From: an uncultured Chthonomonas sp.
GTDB lineage: Bacteria > Armatimonadota > Chthonomonadetes > Chthonomonadales > CAJBBX01
Direction of reading: 5' to 3'
Length of the DNA: 64,000 nt
NCBI GenBank assembly: GCA_903951425.1
Contig: CAJBBX010000005.1
Location: 1-64,000, forward strand
Below the pieces are notes generated by a model that saw nothing but the letters and a program-made list of their open reading frames with translations, searched no databases and was not told the origin of the DNA. This document shows positions 46,327-53,228 of the stretch, piece after piece. Position numbers and translations under genes: made by a program. Every line of letters starts with the position of its first letter. Within the stretch, counting starts at the first letter, position 1.

Positions 46327-46827
46327 GTGCCGACGAGTGTGATCTCTGACGTATCGGAGCCGGTGCCGAAGTTGCGCATCTGCCGCATCATTGGCGGCAT
46401 ACTGCGCCGTCACGGCATTCGGGGGGCCGAGGTCTGCGTGCGAATCACTGACGACGATGCCGTCCGCGAGCTCAACGGCGCCTACCGGCGCATCGACCGC
46501 GTCACCGATGTCCTTTCCTTCGGCTACGCCGGCGGGATAACCCCGGAGACCGCGGCTGCCGCAGTGCAGGCGTTGCAGGGCACGCTGGGCGACATCGTGA
46601 TCGCCTATCCTACCGCCCACAGGCAGGCTGCGGCCCGCGGGGTCGCCACTGACGATGAACTGGTGCATCTGGCCGCCCATGGTTGCCTCCACCTTCTGGG
46701 CTACGATGACGACACGACGGAGGCGCTTGGCGCCATGGAGGCCATGGTCTACGATGCGATGGGTGCGCGTGGCACGGTGATGCGCCGAACAGCGACCGGC
46801 AACCAGGGCGGCGTACCGGCCCAATGA
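46327..46827 (+). CDS. ybeY: Endoribonuclease YbeY (rRNA maturation factor)
   Basis: About 166 residues. The core is VTDVLSFGYAG and GDIVIAYPTA, then the metal site DELVHLAAHGCLHLLGYDDDTTEA. The family site is HGxLHLxGYDH; here the first two histidines are kept and the third is Asp, so metal coordination would be 2 His + Asp. GTG 46327 is the best start; TTG at 46291 is an alternative. The stop overlaps the UdpK-PAP2 start (ATGA). YbeY commonly lies next to a dgkA-like gene and CBS-domain protein, as here. Confidence 0.92.
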   Translation: MPTSVISDVSEPVPKLRICRIIGGILRRHGIRGAEVCVRITDDDAVRELNGAYRRIDRVTDVLSFGYAGGITPETAAAAVQALQGTLGDIVIAYPTAHRQAAARGVATDDELVHLAAHGCLHLLGYDDDTTEALGAMEAMVYDAMGARGTVMRRTATGNQGGVPAQ

Positions 46828-47612
46828 TCCGCTCAAAACTACCAACCGACAGCTTCGTCTACGCCCTTGAAGGCGTCCTGCACTGCTTCCGTTCGCAGCG
46901 GCACATGCAGGTCCACTTCATGATGCTTGTGCTCGTACTCGTCGCCGCGCTGATGCTCGGCGTCGAGATGATGGGCGTCCTGATCCTGATGCTCTGCATC
47001 GCCATGGTCATGGCCACGGAGTTGATTAACACCGCCATCGAGACCGTGGTCGACATGGTCTCGAAGAAGTACGAGCCCTTGGCCAAGCTGGCCAAGGACG
47101 TGGCCGCCGGCGCGGTACTCGTGGCGTCCGTCAACGCAGCGGTGTGCGGCTCCCTGATCTTCCTGCGCACCAAGCCCGTGCGCTACATTGCCAAGGCGGC
47201 GCGAATGCAACCTGTGCGCCCCGATCCCCTGGTCGTCGCCATCGTAGGGATCCTGGTCATCGCCACGATAGTGATGATCAGCAAGCTTCGCGCAGGCCGC
47301 TCCAATGCGGCGCTCTGGCAGGGCGGCCCCGTCAGCGGTCACTCCGCGGTGGGCTTCTTCCTGGCCGTTACCGTGATCTTCTCCGCCAACAGCGCGCTCG
47401 TCACGGTTCTTGCGCTTCTGCTGGCCGCCATCATCGCCCAGAGCCGCGTCGAGGCTCGCATCCACTCCATCCATGAGGTCGTGATGGGCGCCCTGGTCGG
47501 CCTCGTCCTGACCACTACCATCTACTGGCTCATGCCGTTCATCAGGCAGGCATGGGCCGACGGACATCGGAGCGCCCTACCGTTGCTGCCTGTGTTGAGG
47601 CTTCCAGGATGA
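46824..47612 (+). CDS. Undecaprenol/diacylglycerol kinase fused to PAP2 phosphatase
   Basis: 262 residues. N-terminal DgkA/UdpK domain (1-115): three helices and signature ELINTAIETVVDMVSKKYEPLAKLAKDVAAGAVL. C-terminal PAP2-like domain (120-245): GGPVSGHSAVGFF and SRVEARIHSIHEVVMG, resembling PSGHS and SRxxxxxHxxxD with Pro-to-Val and Asp-to-Glu changes; the first PAP2 motif (KxxxxxxRP) is not clear. Such fusions would let one polypeptide phosphorylate and dephosphorylate undecaprenol/lipid. Coupled to ybeY and to the next gene by ATGA. Confidence 0.88.
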   Translation: MIRSKLPTDSFVYALEGVLHCFRSQRHMQVHFMMLVLVLVAALMLGVEMMGVLILMLCIAMVMATELINTAIETVVDMVSKKYEPLAKLAKDVAAGAVLVASVNAAVCGSLIFLRTKPVRYIAKAARMQPVRPDPLVVAIVGILVIATIVMISKLRAGRSNAALWQGGPVSGHSAVGFFLAVTVIFSANSALVTVLALLLAAIIAQSRVEARIHSIHEVVMGALVGLVLTTTIYWLMPFIRQAWADGHRSALPLLPVLRLPG

Positions 47613-49605: not shown

Positions 49606-50271
49606 CTACACCGACGCCTCGGAGAACGACTCGCGGAACTCGCGCTCCTTGTCCGCAAGGCAGACCGCAATCAACGTATCGCCGTCGAGCATCCGCGTAT
49701 CTCCGGAGGCCACCCGAGCCACGTCGTCGCGCATGACCGCCACGATGAGCGCGCCCTCGGGCAACTTGATCTGCCGGATCTCCATATTCAGTGCCGGGGA
49801 GCGCGGCCCAATCTCGACTTCAACAATCTCCAGGTTACCGCGCCGCATGGCCGCCAATGGGATGACCTCGGCCACCTCGATCTCCTGCTCGATGAGGTTG
49901 TAGATGATCTTGGTGGAGCTCACGGTGGAGTCAATGCCGAGTTTGTGGAAGAGGCCCTCATTGCGCGGGTTATTGACGCGGGCGATAGTGCGGCCCACGT
50001 TGAAGTTCATCTTGGCCATCTGGCAGATCACGAGGTTGTCCTCATCATCGCCCGTACAGGCCACAACTACGTCGGCGCGTGCGGCGCCGGCCTCCTCCAG
50101 GAGCCGCACCTCGCAGCCGTCGCCCTGCATGGCGATCTCGCCCAGTTCCTCGGAGACGAAGCGGTGCCGCACGCGGTCCTTCTCCATCAGCAGGACTTCA
50201 TGCTGTGTGCCGCTCAGCGCCTTCGCGAGGAAGTAGCCCACGTTGCCGCCGCCTACAATGATCACATACAT
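49606..50271 (-). CDS. TrkA-type K+ transport regulatory protein, two-domain
   Basis: 221 residues. Rossmann NAD-binding RCK_N: YVIIVGGGNVGYFLAKALSG, EVLLMEKD, VVVACTGDDEDNLVICQMAKM. RCK_C (about 135-215): LEIVEVEIGPRSPALNMEIRQIKLPEGALIVAVMRDD. Length and domains match KtrA/TrkA proteins that gate TrkH/KtrB channels. Its channel partner is not in the window. It lies 35 bp after another TrkA-N gene. Confidence 0.9.
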   Translation of the reverse strand: MYVIIVGGGNVGYFLAKALSGTQHEVLLMEKDRVRHRFVSEELGEIAMQGDGCEVRLLEEAGAARADVVVACTGDDEDNLVICQMAKMNFNVGRTIARVNNPRNEGLFHKLGIDSTVSSTKIIYNLIEQEIEVAEVIPLAAMRRGNLEIVEVEIGPRSPALNMEIRQIKLPEGALIVAVMRDDVARVASGDTRMLDGDTLIAVCLADKEREFRESFSEASV

Positions 50272-50306
50272 GCCCTGAACTCCTCAACTGCCGCACCGTC
50301 CGCGGA

Positions 50307-50759
50307 CTAGATGCTCGACTCCATGTAGCGCTCGTTGTAATCTTGCTCGATCGGCCACCGGCCCGTCGAGAGGAAGTCGTTCATGAGGCCCGACAGGATG
50401 GTTGTGCCGCAGATCGTCACGATGCCCATAGACCGATAGACGTGGGCACGGATGGGATCATTGATCCTCGTCAGCACGGAGGGGACGTTGTAGACGGTCT
50501 TGGCGATCTGCGCAGCCATGATGTTGCGGTTGTCGCCCTGCGTGACGCTCACGAAGACATCGCACTTCTCGATGCCTGCCCGCCTCAGTATGTCGTCGTC
50601 CAACCCATTCCCTACCACGCGATCGCCCTTGTAGCGCGGCCCCAGCCGTCGGAAGGCCTCGCTCGCCATGTCAATCACGGTGACGTGGTGGTTGTCGCCA
50701 TACATTACGCGCGCCAAGGTGGAGCCGACGCGGCCACATCCGAGGATGATGACGTTCAT
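50307..50759 (-). CDS. TrkA-N (RCK_N) only protein
   Basis: 150 residues: VIILGCGRVGSTLARVMYGDNHHVTVIDMA, VVGNGLDDDILRRAG and VFVSVTQGDNRNIMAAQIAKTVYN, i.e. the nucleotide-binding domain without an RCK_C. The tail ILSGLMNDFLSTGRW resembles the linker that normally leads into RCK_C. With the next gene it makes an RCK_N plus RCK_N/RCK_C pair, which may assemble together. Starts 19 bp after the STAS-USP gene. Confidence 0.88.
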   Translation of the reverse strand: MNVIILGCGRVGSTLARVMYGDNHHVTVIDMASEAFRRLGPRYKGDRVVGNGLDDDILRRAGIEKCDVFVSVTQGDNRNIMAAQIAKTVYNVPSVLTRINDPIRAHVYRSMGIVTICGTTILSGLMNDFLSTGRWPIEQDYNERYMESSI

Positions 50760-50778
50760 CTACGCCTCCTACTAGGGC

Positions 50779-51567
50779 TCACGGCTGGATATGTGTCGGA
50801 GGGGCGATCGCGCCGCGTGCGATTGTGATCGCGCACTCCGCCCGCTTCATGAGATCGTTGGCCAACCGAGTGACCGTGTCGTCCAGTAGCGCCGAGTTGA
50901 TCGCGATGACCGCGGCCGCCGCGGCATGCTCGCGGAGCGAGGCGAGGAGGCCCTCATCCGCGTTCCGCACGCGTTCGACGTGGCCAAGCGCTGTCACGTT
51001 GAGCCGCCTGGCGTCCTCCACCGCTCGGTCCACTCGCGCGGTGGCGTCGGCCTCCTCGTCAGGTAGCGGCGTGGCCAGGGCCAGTTGCCGCGCCACGACC
51101 AGGTAGGCGACGAACACGAGCGACAGTCGCTTCTCCTTGGCGATGCGGCAAGCGGTCTCGACGGCAAGTCCCAGATCGGTCCATTGCGCCAGCGGCACGA
51201 CGATGCAGCCGCGCAGCGCCTCATCGTGGCCGTCCGACGACTGCTTCAACGAGCTCCGCGCGGCCTCAATGGATGTTGCAATCGGTAGCTGTGACTTAAC
51301 GCCCGGGATGCTGCGAAGGGCGGCCAGGACGTTGTCCGGAAGGTTGCAGACCACGATGCGGGAGCCGGCGGACCGGATGTCGCGCATAGCGTCAGAGAAG
51401 GTCCGGGCTCCGTCACCTGCCACGTCACCCAGGTCCGCGCAATCGATGATGATGCCTTCTGGATGCTCCTTCAGGAGCAGATTGCAGGCAGCCTTGATGG
51501 TGAGCCACTCGCTGCGGACCAGCGAGCCAGAGAGCTTGACGACATCATCACGTGTATAGACGATCAT
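50779..51567 (-). CDS. STAS domain - universal stress protein fusion
   Basis: 262 residues. N-terminal STAS-like half (about 1-105): VVKLSGSLVRSEWLTIKAACNLLLKEHPEGIIIDCADLGDVAGDGARTFSDAM, matching SpoIIAA-type layout; the usual phospho-Ser/Thr in DCSGL is replaced by DCADLGDVAG. C-terminal half (about 118-262) is a UspA fold: IVVPLAQWTDLGLAVETACRIAKEKRLSLVFVAYLV, then VIAINSALLDDTVTRLANDLMKRAECAITI. The classic USP ATP loop GxxGxxGS is not evident. First gene of a unit with two TrkA-type genes, driven by the promoter at 51651-51679. Confidence 0.78.
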   Translation of the reverse strand: MIVYTRDDVVKLSGSLVRSEWLTIKAACNLLLKEHPEGIIIDCADLGDVAGDGARTFSDAMRDIRSAGSRIVVCNLPDNVLAALRSIPGVKSQLPIATSIEAARSSLKQSSDGHDEALRGCIVVPLAQWTDLGLAVETACRIAKEKRLSLVFVAYLVVARQLALATPLPDEEADATARVDRAVEDARRLNVTALGHVERVRNADEGLLASLREHAAAAAVIAINSALLDDTVTRLANDLMKRAECAITIARGAIAPPTHIQP

Positions 51568-51650
51568 GGATCAGCCATTCCGAAGGCGGGAGGATGGGCC
51601 GCTCTATCATCCTGTACGGCGGCGGCCAAAGGGCGGGCCCGAGCGTGCAG

Positions 51651-51679
51651 AGTATACTGCTCCCGCGCCGGCAAGTCAA
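51651..51679 (-). promoter_or_regulatory. Promoter of the STAS-USP / trkA operon
   Basis: On the minus strand TTGACT (51679-51674), 17-bp spacer, TATACT (51656-51651). Predicted start near 51644, about 75 nt above the STAS-USP ATG. The -10 lies in a palindromic AGTATACT. Confidence 0.68.
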
Positions 51680-51725
51680 CGCGCCGGGAGCAAGTACACC
51701 CCCTGCAGCGGGACGGAGTGACCCC

Positions 51726-53228
51726 TTGGCCAGAGCCCTTGTGTTGAATGAGCGGGACAATGTAGCGGTTGCGCTGGAGCATCTGGCCCCAGGCGCCTCC
51801 GTGGTCGGGCCGCACGGTGTCGTCGAGGTCATGGATCCGATCGCGCCGGCGCACAAGGTTGCGCTGACGGTAATCGGCCCCGGCGAGCCGATCACAAAGT
51901 ACGGCCATACCATCGGCGTGGCCTCGTGCCACATCGCGGCGGGCGCCTGGGTACACACCCAAAACCTGGCCTTCGCGCCCAGCGTTCAGCCTAGCGCGGC
52001 GCGGCCGGAGGCGCAGCCGTCGGGCCCAATGCAGTTCCTGCCGACCACGTATCTGGGCTACCGCCGCGTCGGGCGCCGGGCGGGCATACGCAACGCGGTC
52101 GCCGTGGTGGCTGCGTCCAATTGTGCTGCTGATGTCGTGCGCGGCATCGTGGCCCGGCTCCGGATCCGCGGGTTGCCCGGTGTCGAGCAGGTAGTTCCCA
52201 TCGTCCACGGGAGCGGTTGCGGCCTCCAATCCGACGGTGTGGACCATGCCGTGCTGCGCCGGTGCCTGCACGGCATGGTTCTGCATCCGAATGTGACGGC
52301 CGCGCTCGTGGTCGGCCTCGGTTGCGAGGTGAACCAGGTCTGCGGCATCATGGCGGGCCTCATGGCCGATGGTCGCGTCGTCTCGCTGGGCATCCAGGAC
52401 GCCGGCGGCGTGGGCAAGGCCATTGAGCGCGGCGTGGAGGTGCTGGCCCGGGCGGCTGGCCCGGCCGCGGACGAGCGTCGCGAGGCTATCCCGGTCTCGG
52501 ATCTCACGGTGGGCACCAACTGCGGGGGATCGGACGCCAACTCGGGTATCACGGCGAATCCCGCGCTGGGTCTTGCCGGCGACGCGCTGGTGTCCGCCGG
52601 CGCTGGGTGGGCACTGGCGGAGACGACGGAGACCTTCGGAGCCGAGGCGATTCTTGCGGCCAACGCGGCCAGCTCGGAAGCGGGCCGGAGGCTACTCGTC
52701 GCCGTACGGTGGTGGGAGCGGCACACCGCCGCGGCGGGCGTGACGGTGGACGGCAACCCTGCTCCCGGCAACAAGGCAGGCGGCCTGACGACCATCACCG
52801 AGAAGGCGCTGGGGGCCGTGCTGAAGGCCGGATCGTCGCCTTTGCGGGGGTACTGCGACTACGCGGAGCCAATAACGGCGCCGGGGCTGACCTTTATGGA
52901 TACGCCCGGGCATGACGCGCCGTCTGTCACCGGTCTGGCGGCGGGCGGCTGCTCATTGATCGTCTTCACCACCGGGCGCGGCAGCTGCATCGGCTTCCCC
53001 GCCGTGCCCATCTTGAAGGTCGGCAGCAACTCCCAGGTCTCTCGACGCATGGGCGGCGACATAGACCTTGATGCCGGCGTGATCCTCGAGGGTGTACCGA
53101 TGGCGGACGTGGCAGCGGCCATTGCAGCACGCATCATCGGCGTGGCCTCCGGCGACCGGACCAAGGCAGAGCTGCAGGGCCTGGGCGATGACGCCTTCGT
53201 GCCGTGGCTCCGGGGTCCCGTGCTGTGA
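51726..53228 (+). CDS. UxaA-family hydrolyase (altronate/galactarate dehydratase type)
   Basis: 500 residues. N-terminal SAF-like domain (1-85: NVAVALEHLAPGASVVG, KYGHTIGVASCHIAAGAWVHTQNL), then the UxaA core: YRRVGRRAGIRNAVAVVAASNCAADVV, HGSGCGLQSD, GTNCGGSDANSGITANPALG, and GGCSLIVFTTGRGSCIGFPAVPILKVGSN. These enzymes are iron-dependent sugar-acid dehydratases. TTG start at 51726 with GGAG 7 bp upstream; starting at 51552 would put it inside the STAS-USP gene. No uronate pathway genes lie near, so substrate is open. Confidence 0.9.
   Translation: MARALVLNERDNVAVALEHLAPGASVVGPHGVVEVMDPIAPAHKVALTVIGPGEPITKYGHTIGVASCHIAAGAWVHTQNLAFAPSVQPSAARPEAQPSGPMQFLPTTYLGYRRVGRRAGIRNAVAVVAASNCAADVVRGIVARLRIRGLPGVEQVVPIVHGSGCGLQSDGVDHAVLRRCLHGMVLHPNVTAALVVGLGCEVNQVCGIMAGLMADGRVVSLGIQDAGGVGKAIERGVEVLARAAGPAADERREAIPVSDLTVGTNCGGSDANSGITANPALGLAGDALVSAGAGWALAETTETFGAEAILAANAASSEAGRRLLVAVRWWERHTAAAGVTVDGNPAPGNKAGGLTTITEKALGAVLKAGSSPLRGYCDYAEPITAPGLTFMDTPGHDAPSVTGLAAGGCSLIVFTTGRGSCIGFPAVPILKVGSNSQVSRRMGGDIDLDAGVILEGVPMADVAAAIAARIIGVASGDRTKAELQGLGDDAFVPWLRGPVL

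Follow-up and report, generated by a model that had tools for sequence, protein, structure and literature searches.

Across the sampled loci of the phylum Armatimonadota, a protein made of a STAS domain joined to a universal-stress (USP) domain was found mostly to be encoded directly behind the K+ importer KimA. Given this synteny, the co-occurrence of the two genes and the absence of TrkH, Kup and KdpA from the genome under study, STAS-USP is probably a trans-acting accessory subunit of KimA, with a pair of RCK proteins (RCKa and RCKb) as the nucleotide-sensing module of the same system; we put the probability of this reading at roughly two in three. The observations made by computation comprise the domains, the synteny, the co-occurrence, the absence of the other K+ importers searched for and the intact transport residues of KimA. 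KimA is a proton-coupled, c-di-AMP-controlled K+ importer of the KUP/APC class that the available sections of the literature (PMC6994465, PMC10284832) treat as working alone, describing a homodimer free of partner proteins and mentioning, in those sections, no STAS, USP or RCK partner. A partner gene that is kept throughout the phylum and often overlaps kimA points to a regulatory subunit of KimA, undescribed as far as we found. What is new is that KimA and STAS-USP form a conserved pair and that KimA is displaced in the genome studied here; no paper joining STAS, USP and KimA was found in the open-access literature searched.

The window, a stretch of 64,000 nucleotides on contig C5 of a genome with a completeness rating of 100%, carries four co-directional genes on the minus strand according to its list of open reading frames, in the order STAS-USP, RCKa, RCKb and a gene for an NTF2-like protein. 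STAS-USP (51567-50779, minus strand) encodes 262 aa, with the STAS domain at about residues 1-110 and the USP domain at about 118-252, as delimited by Pfam, an AlphaFold2 model and fold matches. After a gap of 19 bp follows RCKa (50759-50307, minus strand; 150 aa), a TM1088A-like protein with RCK_N (TrkA_N) only, and after another 35 bp RCKb (50271-49606, minus strand; 221 aa), a TM1088B-like protein with RCK_N and RCK_C. The succession of an RCK_N-only and an RCK_N/RCK_C protein behind STAS-USP, as described in the initial annotation, is real, co-directional and closely spaced. As to the accompanying claim that three genes stand under one promoter, a fourth gene, 12 bp behind RCKb, belongs to the run too, and the sigma-70-like match upstream of STAS-USP (51679-51651, minus strand; TTGACT-17-TATACT, 10/12 consensus positions) is weak evidence, with 1 promoter-type match found there against 0.5 ± 0.8 expected in shuffles. 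The fourth gene (49593-49048, minus strand) encodes 181 aa with an N-terminal hydrophobic stretch. No Pfam family was detected in this protein, which models as exported and NTF2-like (AlphaFold2 pLDDT 73; top Foldseek rows NTF2-like), and the gene occupies the same place in 8 of the 11 family loci drawn. A convergent CorC-like gene lies after the cluster, and a divergent altronate-dehydratase-like gene (uxaA) before it. Elsewhere in the window, positions 46824-47612 encode a diacylglycerol kinase joined to a PAP2 phosphatase domain.

The gene order of the window's family was found to be uxaA-[KimA]-STAS-USP-RCKa-RCKb-NTF2-corC, with KimA as the variable element. The slot between uxaA and STAS-USP (51568-51727 in the window) holds KimA in the relatives G007, G009 and G006, and lacks it in the window and in G001, G002, G005 and G011. 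Its right edge is approximate because the start of uxaA is not fixed; the reading frame as listed begins at 51552, and the true start is likely later. As KimA also directly precedes STAS-USP in G008, G010 and the outgroup G012, its presence in the slot is probably ancestral. The window genome carries two KimA genes, on contigs C56 and C156. In the tree, the C156 copy grouped with the operon copies with moderate support (83/95), and the C56 copy grouped with second copies that are unlinked (100/100), a pattern that fits a departure of the operon copy from its slot. The annotation's remark that no K+ channel gene is in view was thus correct for the window; the likely transporter appears to have been lost from exactly that locus, with two copies elsewhere in the genome.

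Both copies are predicted, from homology and transport residues, to be K+ importers of the KimA/KUP type. The C56 protein matched 6s3k with an E value of 9.1e-126 over 27-651, and the C156 protein is a full-length homologue scoring 1063 bits to the KimA profile. Residues D36, Y43, T121, T230, E233 and Y377 were conserved in all 11 aligned sequences, both copies included; the roles of D36, Y43, T121, E233 and Y377 as K+ and H+ residues are given in the available part of PMC6994465. At position 337, 9 of the 11 homologues have Arg and 2 have Lys, R337 being the membrane-domain arginine that contacts c-di-AMP. Relatives encode next to STAS-USP a full-length homologue of Bacillus subtilis KimA (KUP family; 6s3k, 8b70, 8b71), which retains the transport residues, a cytosolic domain and, in most cases, R337. 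Excerpts of PMC6994465 and PMC10284832 describe dimeric KimA as locked by its cytosolic domains, which bind c-di-AMP. Because a diadenylate cyclase gene is present, direct c-di-AMP control of KimA is possible; over 7 loci (125 kb), no c-di-AMP riboswitch upstream of KimA reached the gathering threshold.

No TrkH, Kup or KdpA was detected in the window genome in searches run with positive controls, of which the TrkH search recovered 11 of 14, and these systems were ruled out as the partner of STAS-USP by their absence. KimA, rather than the TrkH/KtrB-type channel put forward in the initial annotation, is the best-supported target. The only further RCK protein above the cut-off in this genome is a channel with two RCK domains of its own. 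In this K+ channel (L080:6152-7909), a single ion-channel domain is flanked on either side by RCK.

Sequence relatives of the window STAS-USP were 95, 89 and 44% identical, and matches were present in 43 of 61 genomes (60 relatives plus the window genome). A single-sequence scan of named collections returned 3 loci, under Chthonomonas, Chthonomonadales and Armatimonadetes titles, and a plasmid search gave no match. For the wider phylum, loci were picked by hand and non-randomly, about one per genus; 99 were profiled and eight USP-only loci (L149-L156) left out, giving 91, the window locus not among them. In 66 of the 91 loci, representing 15 families, KimA immediately preceded STAS-USP on the same strand. 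The two genes overlapped in 40 of these 66 pairs, many with a four-base stop/start overlap, and 61 pairs lay within 50 bp. In one further locus (L167) KimA was directly downstream. KimA was absent upstream in 25 loci (among them families f4, f5 and f6, the majority of f24 and four loci of f1), and the KimA profile search located it elsewhere in nearly all of these genomes.

The association was also apparent in gene content. When 291 genomes of the phylum were searched with a profile, 189 matched STAS-USP at 1e-8, of which 137 were classed as full STAS-USP (best E 2.2e-37 or better, including the fragments in G046 and G129) and the 52 weaker were set aside. KimA was scored as present at an E value of 1e-100 or better, with fragments counted as absent (e.g., in G196, whose locus L162 shows a KimA piece beside STAS-USP). 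Overall, KimA was present in 212 genomes, RCKb in 184 and TrkH in 48. Among the 137 genomes with full STAS-USP, 131 had KimA (Fisher odds ratio 19.7), 130 had RCKb (34.4) and 16 had TrkH (0.50), values that overstate independence since the genomes are related. STAS-USP is not obligatory for KimA, as 81 of the 212 KimA genomes were without a full copy. Six STAS-USP genomes were without KimA: G029 (64% complete), G167 (73% complete), G196, where a KimA fragment is visible at a contig end, and G240-G242, which have a lower-scoring STAS-USP (locus L166 in G241) together with TrkH. The last three are a true exception, perhaps with an exchanged partner.

Less often, STAS-USP is followed by the RCK pair. 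The pair was found in this position in 12 of the 91 loci, or 13 when L045, where RCKa is cut by the contig end, is included, and in four families. The survey of architecture and neighbors suggested in the initial annotation thus found STAS-USP conserved and sometimes next to RCK genes, yet this arrangement is the minority one against the 66 loci with KimA directly upstream. By Pfam, RCKa has TrkA_N only (87.9 bits), and RCKb has TrkA_N (97.8 bits) and TrkA_C (49.6 bits). Against solved structures, RCKa matched TM1088A (3l4b_A, E 1.9e-22) and RCKb matched TM1088B (3l4b_C, E 1.3e-31). The glycine-rich nucleotide loop is kept in both proteins, with GxGxxG and the acidic D30 of RCKa, and G7, G9, G12 and E30 of RCKb, invariant in 10/10 aligned sequences each. 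The two proteins, one with RCK_N alone and its neighbor with RCK_N and RCK_C, both bearing GxGxxG, have the makeup of a two-subunit TrkA of the TM1088A/B type and resemble the Thermotoga maritima pair encoded at one locus (PMC4380455, available sections). TM1088 pairs with the TrkH protein TM1089 according to the same sections, whereas the window genome holds 0 TrkH. CeoB/CeoC of Mycobacterium tuberculosis is likewise described, in the passages available, as a K+ uptake system of two TrkA proteins, and no TrkH or permease is named for it in the portions of the papers searched for those terms.

A serious competitor, somewhat short of even odds in our judgment, is that STAS-USP works with KimA while the RCK pair serves another membrane protein, such as an RCK-less channel or antiporter, the operon merely grouping genes of K+ homeostasis. 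Most lineages of the phylum have the pair unlinked to KimA (20 sampled loci), KimA is missing from 28 of the 184 RCKb genomes, and RCK rings are known from the available text of PMC4380455 to gate TrkH/KtrB channels. Against this, 161 of the 184 RCKb genomes are without TrkH and 140 of those 161 have KimA, the pair forms one run with KimA and STAS-USP in four families, and the double-RCK channel of the window genome carries its own RCKs. No common transporter was recognized beside the 20 unlinked pairs in flanks that were read without Pfam. Three unlinked pairs (L175, L177 and L186) are preceded by proteins of about 510-520 aa that look alike, and two (L177 and L186) have a protein of about 790-815 aa behind.

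Permease, USP and RCK genes come back together in different forms, as indicated by the KimA runs of L111 and L113, with the order KimA, STAS-USP, USP, RCKa, RCKb, and by runs with a non-KimA APC permease in three other loci. The latter (L149:3188-7044, L150:3128-6772 and L152:1181-6751) line up the permease, a USP protein and RCKa and RCKb fused into one protein of about 395 aa, in genomes without full STAS-USP; Pfam was applied only to the permease and USP of L149.

For STAS-USP as a subunit of KimA, the following mechanism is proposed. STAS-USP would be a cytosolic protein, encoded just behind kimA and probably translationally coupled to it, that docks from the cytosol on the KimA dimer, which has alpha/beta domains of its own on that side that bind c-di-AMP. 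It would set the transport activity of KimA, as STAS does in SLC26 and MlaFEDB and as proposed for the USP of TeaABC. RCKa/RCKb, built like the Thermotoga two-subunit TrkA ring, would add nucleotide sensing, and in the window's genus kimA would have left the operon for its present place on other contigs. From the computed associations we infer physical binding, the direction of control, a ligand of both domains and an action of the RCK pair on KimA, the last being the least certain step, for which the four families and the co-occurrence would argue. A bolder and only tentative extension is that STAS-USP and the RCKa/RCKb ring assemble in the cytosol, on dimeric KimA, into a regulatory complex in which a nucleotide-gated RCK module controls a LeuT-fold secondary transporter rather than a channel and STAS-USP is the adaptor; if true, it would hint at the membrane protein with which other TrkH-less RCK pairs work. 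With the RCK pair and KimA but no TrkH in 140 of 291 genomes, the question of what orphan RCK pairs gate becomes directly testable.

Precedents exist for both halves of the protein. STAS acts on a transporter in MlaFEDB (PMC7790496, available portion), and the accessible part of PMC5549992 has USPs proposed to act on TeaABC and shown to interact with Rv1747. MlaB of MlaFEDB and SLC26/SulP likewise place STAS modules on transporters, whereas the proposed partner of STAS-USP is a LeuT-fold K+ importer and its STAS is fused to a USP. STAS-USP is itself no SLC26/SulP protein, being a separate 262-aa protein of STAS and USP only, free of the SLC26 membrane domain.

As stated in the initial annotation, STAS is joined to a universal-stress domain. 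The STAS domain of the window protein scored 24.2 bits in Pfam against a cut-off of 22.6; Usp was not called by Pfam in this protein, the USP half being assigned from fold matches of the AlphaFold2 model (mean pLDDT 77, from a 4-sequence alignment). Residues 1-112 of the model resemble STAS, with RsbS (6jhk, Z 15.0) and the SLC26A11 STAS domain (9iar, Z 14.1) among the matches, and residues 115-252 resemble USP, with 3qtb (Z 16.6; rmsd 2.4 over 123 residues) and 3hgm (Z 15.7). The latter is TeaD, the USP of the TRAP transporter TeaABC, a top fold match of STAS-USP and a USP proposed to act on a transporter. In sequence, the best PDB match of the STAS part was 7ch8_K (E 0.006), a chain that we take to be MlaB. 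A PDB search with the single STAS-USP sequence gave no match, and designed helical repeats, the top two rows of the profile search against the PDB, were taken as chance.

The initial annotation had supposed that both domains read nucleotides or phosphorylation; the usual residues fail this expectation. In an alignment of 91 proteins (the window and 90 loci; L158 was dropped for its weak STAS score of 51), position 51, which we take to be equivalent to the phosphorylated serine S58 of SpoIIAA, is Ser/Thr in 4/91 and Gly in the window protein. The ATP-binding motif of USPs is G-2x-G-9x-G-(S/T), and it was found in 0/91 aligned STAS-USP proteins, which ruled out an ATP-sensing USP. STAS-USP therefore has its fold in common with the anti-sigma-factor antagonists (SpoIIAA/RsbV) and with the ATP-binding universal stress proteins but departs from both at these positions. 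It also departs from Rv2623 of the Rv2623-Rv1747 pair, whose growth control goes with ATP binding in the accessible part of PMC5549992. Ten USP-only proteins located close to APC or RCK genes were also without a relaxed form of the motif, the absence of which therefore does not set STAS-USP apart. With the usual switch residues absent, STAS-USP more likely takes its input from contact with a protein or from another ligand.

It is accordingly improbable that the protein serves stress signaling of the partner-switching or stressosome-like kind, with the STAS domain phosphorylated, the USP domain sensing ATP and the output directed to a sigma factor or TrkA. The STAS fold is nearest to RsbS and anti-sigma antagonists in both structure and sequence-profile matches, and position 50 is Ser/Thr in 80/91 proteins; at that position, however, the window protein has Ala, and neither a kinase nor a sigma gene was found among the three genes and their immediate neighbors in the window. 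The stressosome/partner-switching reading was rejected because the phospho-serine is absent and no kinase gene lies nearby. An unrecognized regulator that ties stress to potassium transport, as first annotated, is supported in part, the STAS-USP architecture being conserved and found in the same genomes as KimA and the RCK pair, but "stress" came solely from the name of the USP domain. That STAS-USP is a chance neighbor of KimA, preserved by slow genome rearrangement among related, unevenly sampled genomes, is very improbable, as the two genes stay together in 15 families, their start and stop overlapping in 40/66, while other neighbors change.

Some members of the STAS-USP family are longer. 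In seven loci (L076, L079, L145, L159, L165, L166 and L167), STAS followed by two USP copies was found in one protein, mostly beside KimA. The second copy is weak in L166, and in the relative L076 it is called as Usp by Pfam.
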